Source of the DNA: Streptomyces antibioticus
Lineage (GTDB): Bacteria; Actinomycetota; Actinomycetes; Streptomycetales; Streptomycetaceae
DNA: 64,000 bases
Assembly: GCF_001514065.1 (NCBI RefSeq)
Contig: NZ_KQ948432.1
Span: 347,820-411,819 of the forward strand
Direction of reading: 5' to 3'
Made by a program: the position numbers and the translations under genes
Notes under the pieces: generated by a model
Seen by the model: only the letters and a program-made list of their open reading frames with translations
What the model was told of the DNA's origin: nothing
The model's database searches: none
Part shown: in pieces, positions 41,760-48,136 of the stretch
Position numbering within the stretch: position 1 is the first letter of the stretch
How the letters are laid out: each line of letters starts with the position of its first letter

Positions 41760-42059
41760 GGCCGCGGCCCCTTCACATATTGTGATCTTGCACGCGAATC
41801 GTGCTGGGACGATAAATCGACTTGAGTCCCGCGGCAACGGGACGCACCGCCCGATTCGCCCGCCTCGCGCAGGGAGCACGCCAGGCATGCAAGCGTTGTG
41901 CCCAGCTCCCCGCCCGGTAATCCGCCGGATCGCGCGTCCCGGAATCCGAACACGCGTACCGCTCCATTCGGGTCACTCCGGCGCCCGCGACGACCGCGCC
42001 CCGGAGCCCGGGAAATCCGGTCGGCCGCTGTCCTCGCGGCGCCGTACACTGGGCGGAGC
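41760..42059. other. Divergent promoter region, dksA-like / ileS
   Basis: About 300 nt without a gene. It contains a short palindrome at 41773–41785 near the dksA-like start. On the ileS side there is a possible -10 TACACT at 42045–42050, without a matching -35. Nothing else recognised. Confidence 0.5.
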
Positions 42060-42350
42060 GAAAAGCGTGGATGGGGACGAGTAGCGACGTACGCAGCCCA
42101 GAGCGACCCGGGGACGGTGGAAGCCCGGGGGCGAGCGCGACGTGAAGATCACCCCGGAGCCGCCGGAAGAACGCCCTGGAGGGCAAGTAGACCCGGCATC
42201 GCGACCCCAATGAGGGGGCTCACCGGTGCGTACGGCGCACAGGGGAGCCAAGGAGGGTGGTACCGCGGGAGCGCGCCGAAGGCGGCGCAGGAAATGACGT
42301 AGCTCTCGTCCCTCCGGACGGAAGGCAGCAAGTCCGCCGGAGGAAGACTG
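42060..42350 (+). promoter_or_regulatory. T-box riboswitch of ileS (translational type)
   Basis: The conserved T-box sequence AGGGTGGTACCGCGG is at 42254–42268. A candidate isoleucine specifier ATC is at 42148–42150 in a short stem I region. The ribosome-binding site GGAGG (42339–42343, 7 nt before the ATG) can pair in a helix CCTCCGGAC (42311–42319) / GTCCgccGGAGG (42332–42343). Uncharged tRNA-Ile would disfavour that helix. This matches the actinobacterial translational T-box class; boundaries are approximate. Confidence 0.9.
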
Positions 42351-45300
42351 ATGACGCAGTACCGCCAGGTGCCCGCCCAGGTCGATCTGCCCGCGCTCGA
42401 GCACGCGGTGCTCGACTTCTGGCGCGAGCAGAAGATCTTCGCCAAGTCCTTGGAGCAGTCCGAGGGCCGCCCCGAGTGGGTGTTCTACGAGGGCCCGCCC
42501 ACCGCCAACGGCATGCCCGGGGCCCACCACATCGAGGCGCGCGTCTTCAAGGACGTCTTCCCCCGCTTCCGCACCATGCGGGGCTACCACGTGGCCCGCA
42601 AGGCCGGCTGGGACTGCCACGGCCTCCCGGTGGAGCTCGCGGTGGAGAAGGAGCTCGGCTTCAGCGGCAAGCCGGACATCGAGAAGTACGGCATCGCCGA
42701 GTTCAACGCCAAGTGCCGCGAGTCGGTGACCCGCCACACGGACGCCTTCACCGAGCTGACGACCCGCATGGGCTACTGGGTCGACCTCGACGACGCCTAC
42801 CGCACGATGGACCCCGAGTACATCGAGTCGGTCTGGTGGTCGCTGAAGACGATCTTCGACAAGGGCCTGCTGGTCCAGGACCACCGCGTCGCCCCCTGGT
42901 GCCCCCGCTGCGGCACCGGCCTGTCGGACCACGAGCTGGCGCAGGGCTACGAGACGGTCGTCGACCCGTCCGTGTACGTCCGTTTCCCGCTCACCTCCGG
43001 TCCGCTCGCCGGCGAGGCAGCGCTCCTGGTCTGGACGACGACGCCCTGGACCCTCGTCTCCAACACGGCCGTGGCCGCGCACCCCGACGTCACCTATGTC
43101 GTCGCGACCAACGGCGAGGAGAAGCTCGTCGTCGCCGAGCCGCTCGTCGGCAAGGCGCTCGGCGAGGGCTGGGAGACCACCGGCCAGTCCTTCACGGGCG
43201 CCGAGATGGAGCGCTGGACCTATCAACGTCCGTTCGAGCTGGTCGAGTTCCCCGAGCCGGCGCACTACGTGGTGAACGCCGAGTACGTCACGACCGAGGA
43301 CGGCACGGGTCTGGTCCACCAGTCCCCCGCCTTCGGTGAGGACGACCTCAAGGTCTGCCGCGCCTACGGCCTCCCGGTCGTGAACCCGGTCCGCCCCGAC
43401 GGCACCTTCGAGGAGGACGTCCCGCTGGTCGGCGGCGTCTTCTTCAAGAAGGCGGACGAGAAGCTCACGGCGGACCTCCACGACCGCGGCCTCCTCTTCA
43501 GGCACATCCCGTACGAGCACAGCTACCCGCACTGCTGGCGCTGCCACACCGCGCTCCTCTACTACGCGCAGCCGTCCTGGTACATCCGCACCACGGCCAT
43601 CAAGGACCGCCTCCTCCAGGAGAACGAGAACACCAACTGGTTCCCGGACACGGTCAAGCACGGCCGGTACGGCGACTGGCTGAACAACAACATCGACTGG
43701 GCGCTGTCCCGCAACCGCTACTGGGGCACCCCGCTGCCGATCTGGCGCTGCGAGGACGACCACCTGACCGTCGTCGGCTCCCGCGCGGAGCTCACCGAGC
43801 TGACCGGCACCGACCAGTCGGACCTCGACCCGCACCGCCCGTTCATCGACGACGTCACGTTCGCCTGCCCCAAGGACGCCTGCGGCAAGACGGCCACGCG
43901 CGTGCCGGAGGTCATCGACGCCTGGTACGACTCGGGTTCGATGCCGTTCGCGCAGTGGGGCTACCCGTACAAGAACAAGGAGCTCTTCGAGAGCCGCTAC
44001 CCGGCGCAGTTCATCTCGGAGGCCATCGACCAGACCCGCGGCTGGTTCTACACGCTGATGGCGGTAGGCACCCTGGTCTTCGACAAGTCGTCCTACGAGA
44101 ACGTCGTCTGCCTCGGCCACATCCTCGCCGAGGACGGCCGGAAGATGTCCAAGCACCTGGGCAACATCCTCCAGCCGATCCCGCTGATGGACCAGCACGG
44201 CGCCGACGCGGTCCGCTGGTTCATGGCGGCCGGCGGCTCCCCGTGGGCGGCCCGCCGCGTGGGCCACGGCACGATCCAGGAGGTCGTCCGCAAGACGCTC
44301 CTGACGTACTGGAACACGGTCGCCTTCCAGGCCCTTTACGCCCGTACGTCGAACTGGGCGCCGTCCGCCGCCGACCCGGCCCCGGCCGACCGCCCGGTCC
44401 TGGACCGCTGGCTGCTCTCCGAACTCCACGCGCTCACCGACCAGGTGACGCAGGCTCTGGAGGCCTACGACACCCAGCGCGCCGGCAAGCTGCTCTCGGC
44501 GTTCGTCGACGACCTGTCCAACTGGTACGTCCGCCGCTCGCGTCGCCGCTTCTGGCAGGGCGACAAGGCCGCGCTGCGCACGCTGCACGAGGTCGTGGAG
44601 ACGGTCACCAAGCTGATGGCCCCGCTGACCCCGTTCATCACCGAGCGGGTCTGGCAGGACCTGGTCGTCCCGGTCACGCCGGGCGCCCCGGACTCCGTCC
44701 ACCTGTCCAGCTGGCCGGAGGCGGACCTCTCCGCCATCGACCCGGAGCTGTCGCGGCAGATGGTCCTCGTCCGGCGCCTGGTCGAGCTGGGCCGTGCCAC
44801 GCGCGCGGAGTCGGGCGTCAAGACCCGTCAGCCCCTGAGGCGCGCGCTGGTCGCGGTGACGGGCTTCGACACCCTGAACCCCGAACTGCACTCGCAGATC
44901 ACGGAAGAGCTGAACGTCGAGTCGCTGGCGTCCCTCTCCGAGGTCGGCGGCAGCCTGGTCGACACCACCGCCAAGGCCAACTTCCGTGCCCTGGGCAAGC
45001 GGTTCGGCAAGCGCGTCCAGGACGTGGCGAAGGCGGTCGCGAACGCCGACGCGGCGGCGCTCTCCCTCGCCCTGCGCGAGGGCACGGCATCGGTGGAGGT
45101 CGACGGCGAGACGATCACGCTGGCTCCCGACGAGGTCATCATCACGGAGACCCCGCGCGAGGGCTGGTCGGTCGCCTCGGACTCCGGCGCGACGGTCGCC
45201 CTGGACCTGGAGATCACCGAGGAGCTGAAGCAGGCGGGCCTGGCCCGTGACGCGATCCGTCTGATCCAGGAGGCCCGCAAGAACAGCGGCCTGGACGTGG

Positions 45301-47365: not shown

Positions 47366-48007
47366 TCAGCTCTGGTTGAAGAACCCGCCCTCTGCGATAC
47401 GGGCCTTGTCCTCCGCCGTGACATCGACGTTAGCAGGCGACAACAGGAACACCTTCTGCGTCACCCGCTCGATGCTGCCGTGAAGACCAAACACCAAACC
47501 GGCCGCAAAGTCGACAAGTCGCTTGGCGTCTGTGTCATCCATCTCAGTGAGATTCATGATCACAGGGGTGCCCTCACGGAAGTGTTCCCCGATGGTACGG
47601 GCCTCGTTGTAGGTCCGCGGGTGAAGTGTGGTGATCCGGTAAGGCTCTCGTTCCGACACGACCTTGGGCATGATCACCGGTGCGTTCTTCTCCATGCTCT
47701 GGCGTTCTTGTGTGATGGACGCCACGGGCGCGATGCGCGCCGGACGTCCGGATTCCGCGGCTAGCGAAGCGGAACGGGCGACCGGTTCACGCGGGGTGGA
47801 CGGCTGTACGATTCGCACCTCTTCGTCCCTTTGGGACTGATGTGCACTGTGCGACTGGTGCACCGGCTCGTGCCGCCGGTGGTCCCGCTCGGGCTCCGGG
47901 TCCAGTTCGGGTTCGAAGTCGTCGTCGGGGTCAAAACCTCGGCCGTCGTACCCATCGTCCTCCACGAGGCCGAGGTAGACCGCCATCTTGCGCATCGCGC
48001 CGGCCAT
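47366..48007 (-). CDS. sepF: Cell division protein SepF
   Basis: 213 residues. The N-terminal amphipathic membrane-binding helix is [17 protein letters not shown]; an acidic/His-rich linker follows; the C-terminal SepF domain has [20 protein letters not shown] and [14 protein letters not shown]. It anchors FtsZ to the membrane, a role all the more needed here because ftsA is absent. The start is set at ATG 48007; an upstream extension to 48067 lacks a Shine-Dalgarno. Confidence 0.95.
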
Positions 48008-48136
48008 GCTCTGAGTCCTCCGCTCTGTGGTGGATCTGCTGACGACTGCCAAGTGCCTGCGATCCACGAGGTCGTTACGCCCGCCTTTCGGCGGTAATGA
48101 CCATATTTTCTGCTGTGGTCCGACTTCTTGGCGACG

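Follow-up and report, generated by a model that had tools for sequence, protein, structure and literature searches.

A swapped class I signature motif in the housekeeping isoleucyl-tRNA synthetase of Streptomyces antibioticus

The isoleucyl-tRNA synthetase (IleRS) encoded in a window of 64,000 nucleotides of the Streptomyces antibioticus genome (the whole stretch of DNA analysed here) reads GXHH in place of the class I signature HXGH. The locus raises the question whether an essential enzyme is run on this rearranged motif in its ordinary housekeeping form, or whether the gene is an additional resistance copy or the motif an error. With a probability of about 95% the enzyme is the ordinary, sole housekeeping type-2 IleRS (IleRS2) of Streptomyces and belongs to the GXHH subset. 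The finding is already known, since the swap has been published for an IleRS2 of the same genus. The sections of Brkic et al. 2023 (PMC10485003) used here report G/AXHH in 86 of 379 IleRS, all 86 of them IleRS2, recognise the S. griseus IleRS2 as a carrier, and describe the sole-gene IleRS2 as one route to resistance. The initial annotation had named GXHH as a mupirocin hyper-resistance motif of an IleRS2 subset, in agreement with this source. The features of the locus are given in Table 1.

Table 1. Position and basis of the features of the ileS locus in the window
Feature	Position	Strand	Basis
T-box-like leader	42059..42316	+	RF00230, 47.3 bits, E 2.4e-9
ileS, type-2 isoleucyl-tRNA synthetase, 1045 aa	42351..45488	+	TIGR00392 and Pfam tRNA-synt_1, Anticodon_1, DUF5915
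GAHH at residues 57-60, class I signature in its swapped form	42519..42530	+	Codons, structure-chain alignment, relatives
KMSKH at residues 598-602, variant of the second class I signature, KMSKS, ending in His	44142..44156	+	Translation, aligned columns

The reading frame of ileS is translated without internal stops and scores 896.1 bits with the NCBIfam IleRS model TIGR00392, above the curated cut-off of 621.4. When compared with solved chains by HMMER, the protein scores best with 8c8w (914.6 bits) and 1ile (911.8 bits), which we take to be the IleRS2 chains of Priestia and Thermus, and more weakly with 1ffy (348.4 bits) and 8c9f (338.8 bits), presumably IleRS1 chains. Both assignments agree with the structures in PMC10485003. 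The alignment with 8c8w reaches residues 17-1014 of the window protein, i.e. beyond the catalytic part. Since the first two chains score far above the other two, the window protein is classified by these scores as a type-2 IleRS.

The codons GGG GCC CAC CAC encode G57-A58-H59-H60, embedded in the stretch EGPPTANGMPGAHHIEARVFKD. HMMER aligns GAHH with HVGH of the chains 1ile, 8c8v and 8c9d and with GVHH of 8c8w, and there are no gaps nearby. This gap-free facing places the signature motif at residues 57-60 and nowhere else in the protein, and both the position and the reading given in the initial annotation are exact. The G/AXHH subset is defined by Gly or Ala at the first and His at the third and fourth positions of the HXGH column, and these are the residues found in GAHH. 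A legend in PMC10485003 gives X of G/AXHH as Ile, Val, Leu, Met or Tyr; the Ala of the window enzyme is off that list, and in the aligned columns of the combined samples described below the second residue of GXHH can be Ala, Thr, Ser or Phe as well.

As named relatives, the best 80 among 583 confirmed candidates were used, which makes them the closest ones by design; their identity is 87 to 95% in the best segment, and 79 of the 80 are titled Streptomyces and one an actinobacterium. GAHH is present in the aligned columns of all 80. The class sample comprises 112 of 116 listed places, the window's own gene and G207, G292 and G198 (match without the N-terminus) being omitted, and nine of the class genomes are from the window's own genus. 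GXHH was found at 87 of these 112 places (GTHH 50, GAHH 19, GVHH 17, GIHH 1) and HYGH at the other 25. The phylum sample is non-random and consists of 68 loci, 30 best-scoring and 38 hand-picked among the matches listed, from 197 genomes searched; 40 carry GXHH, 13 HXGH, 13 HXGT and one HFGN, and in one the region is absent. As the aligned loci indicate, GXHH is a lineage-wide trait of the housekeeping enzyme and the usual state in Streptomyces.

In a FastTree phylogeny of 189 IleRS sequences, built without the motif columns, a single branch (local support 99) separates the 137 GXHH sequences from all others. Nine of the 80 named relatives are included, and L252, in which the motif region is absent, was omitted. 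The motif needs one change on this tree, compared with a mean of 45.6 when shuffled; one change is thus enough in this sample, and no further change is seen. The tree is unrooted, so that gain and loss are indistinguishable, and long branches are flagged, including L237 at the deep join. From a broader sample, the part of Brkic et al. used here reports at least two gains of G/AXHH in IleRS2 and a reversion in the Deinococcus-Thermus clade (PMC10485003).

The motif may be an old change, neutral or selected for another reason (e.g. tied to a loss of pre-transfer editing), with resistance as a by-product. On balance this is unlikely. The change does look old and fixed, as no further change is seen among the 137 GXHH sequences, and the S. 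griseus IleRS is reported to be without tRNA-dependent pre-transfer editing (Dulic et al. 2016, PMC4861432); however, motif exchanges in both directions act directly and strongly on mupirocin inhibition, shifting the Ki about 200- to 820-fold (PMC10485003), and antibiotic selection is favoured in the consulted parts of both papers.

The genome of the strain is 10.1 Mb in size, with a listed completeness of 99.98%, and a search of its 29 contigs revealed a single place above the IleRS cut-off. No second IleRS, canonical or other, was found there: the weaker matches that were followed up are a ValRS (877 aa), a LeuRS and a CysRS, and two further weak matches, on C4 and C9, are frames of 535 and 412 aa scoring 23 and 19.7 bits. 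Because the genome is in 29 contigs, a second ileS could still lie in a gap. A sole ileS is the rule in the class, as exactly one match (E ≤ 1e-100) was obtained in 114 of the 115 class genomes having any; the lone exception, G233, has a listed contamination of 7%, and such a match is absent from 3 of 118.

The neighbours of ileS in the window match an RluA-family pseudouridine synthase and LspA, and the DksA-like models score below their cut-offs. On the 3' side are a DivIVA-domain protein, YggS, PgeF, FtsZ and MurG. The open reading frame at 47366-48067 had no match among the NCBIfam models; we take it to be SepF. Homologues of the LspA, DksA-like, DivIVA and 47366-48067 proteins were present at 73, 77, 73 and 72, respectively, of the 80 loci (best 80 of 583), several of which are shortened by contig ends. 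The neighbour search was run without a low-complexity filter and the DksA-like protein is rich in lysine and alanine, so the DksA-like matches are softer than the others. With lspA before it and division genes after it, ileS is in a housekeeping position. The lspA–dcw location and the sole copy, both put forward in the initial annotation (the latter as a condition), are thus borne out.

That the window gene is instead an accessory resistance copy, kept beside a second, canonical housekeeping IleRS, has precedents in the available parts of PMC10485003, namely a small Bacillaceae group in which IleRS1 and IleRS2 coexist, and the plasmid-borne ileS2 of resistant S. aureus isolates, but the single place in the strain's own genome, the one-match rule of the class genomes and the housekeeping neighbourhood make it very improbable here. 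A sequencing or alignment artefact masking a true HXGH is refuted, and scarcely conceivable, because the identical four residues in the separate records of all 80 relatives (best 80 of 583) are neither a sequencing error nor chance, and the alignment to the solved chains is gap-free.

For the sole housekeeping IleRS2, a structural basis can be proposed from the published structures, which are reported to explain why G/AXHH is tolerated by IleRS2 and not by IleRS1 (PMC10485003). The tip of the motif-bearing helix is displaced in IleRS2, so that a third-position His can be accommodated with the adenine left in place; the nitrogen of this His substitutes for the one supplied by the first His in HXGH, and catalysis is retained. 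According to modelling in the same source, the bulky third-position His would clash with mupirocin, in keeping with inhibition constants in the mM range. By analogy, we infer the same mechanism for the window protein, and the strain would be intrinsically very resistant to mupirocin. An essential enzyme can run on a rearranged signature motif and be naturally insensitive to a clinical antibiotic, as published, including for Streptomyces. What is added here is breadth only: the swap in all 80 relatives (best 80 of 583) and a wider range of residues at the second motif position.

The second class I signature is changed as well. KMSKH is found in all 80 named relatives (best 80 of 583). Among the 87 GXHH places of the class sample, 85 have K/RMSKH, one has KMSKN and one a gap; KMSKS is found at all 25 HYGH places. 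In the non-random phylum sample, 35 of the 40 GXHH places have KMSKS and one has KMSKH. Both signatures might have changed together in the class, the loop and the motif being co-adapted and the His of KMSKH lying in a remodelled ATP site; this is regarded as rather improbable. The HYGH places sit in a separate part of the tree, which counts against co-adaptation, and, given KMSKS at 35 of the 40 GXHH phylum places, KMSKH may be a mere later lineage trait.

The T-box-like leader matches the full RF00230 model (1-219) in a search of a 521-base stretch under an E-value threshold, its 47.3 bits being below the gathering score of 93; at the gathering threshold no Rfam families were found across the window. 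By eye, a candidate specifier AUC (Ile) is located at 42148-42150 and a ribosome site GGAGGAA at 42339-42345. The T-box core GGTGGTACCGCGG is present 232-280 nt 5' of the PGAHH codons at all 80 loci (best 80 of 583). A 2005 paper (PMC1262725) reported T-boxes 5' of actinobacterial ileS that are thought to control translation initiation, a class in which the T-box core is combined with a hairpin concealing the ribosome site; the leader would be of this published kind. It would sense uncharged tRNA-Ile and set the expression of ileS, which is probably under T-box control at translation initiation.

Other unusual motifs were observed elsewhere in the phylum. The phylum sample contains 26 IleRS1-like sequences, typed by eye from low P0001 scores, among which L252 is without the region. 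In 13 of the 26 the motif is HXGT, with Thr for the fourth His of the HIGH column. The 13 loci (L011, L014, L018, L024, L026, L029, L030, L034, L036, L238, L241, L243 and L249) belong to other families of the phylum. In all 13 genomes the HXGT enzyme is the only place above the IleRS cut-off, with one weaker match in 10 of them. These sequences are at odds with the part of PMC10485003 used here, in which every IleRS1 is stated to carry HXGH; among the papers listed by a literature search on natural HXGT in IleRS, none contained HIGT, HXGT or HVGT. The locus L267 (G044) has HFGN instead of HXGH; its score, 644 bits to P0001, is closer to type 2, and it is the sole match at E ≤ 1e-60 in its genome.

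MupA and MupB, which are mupirocin-resistant IleRS, are acquired second copies in Staphylococcus. Both NCBIfam models match the window protein (777.9 and 748.9 bits), but these scores fall well short of the curated cut-off, 1900 bits for each model, and an accessory copy like MupA or MupB was rejected on that basis. The window gene is the sole copy and is chromosomal. The IleRS2 of Priestia megaterium and Thermus thermophilus are the closest solved chains to the window protein and share its type; unlike it, they are naturally HVGH, and their GVHH forms are described as laboratory mutants (PMC10485003). The Deinococcus radiodurans IleRS2 carries a natural G/AXHH motif, as does the window enzyme, but the motif is ALHH, with Ala rather than Gly first and Leu as X, and the organism is of another phylum; the mupirocin Ki of 6.6 mM given in PMC10485003 is that of the D. 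radiodurans enzyme. The nearest known system is the S. griseus IleRS (SgIleRS), which shares type, swapped motif and genus with the window enzyme. The S. griseus locus L116, from strain NRRL WC-3645, which may differ from the strain used in the SgIleRS assays, is 94% identical to the window gene in the best segment and has both GAHH and KMSKH. No notable sequence difference was seen between SgIleRS and the window protein; the former has a known mupirocin Ki of 10 mM and rescues E. coli without functional IleRS, according to the parts of Dulic et al. used here (PMC4861432), whereas the latter is described from its sequence.
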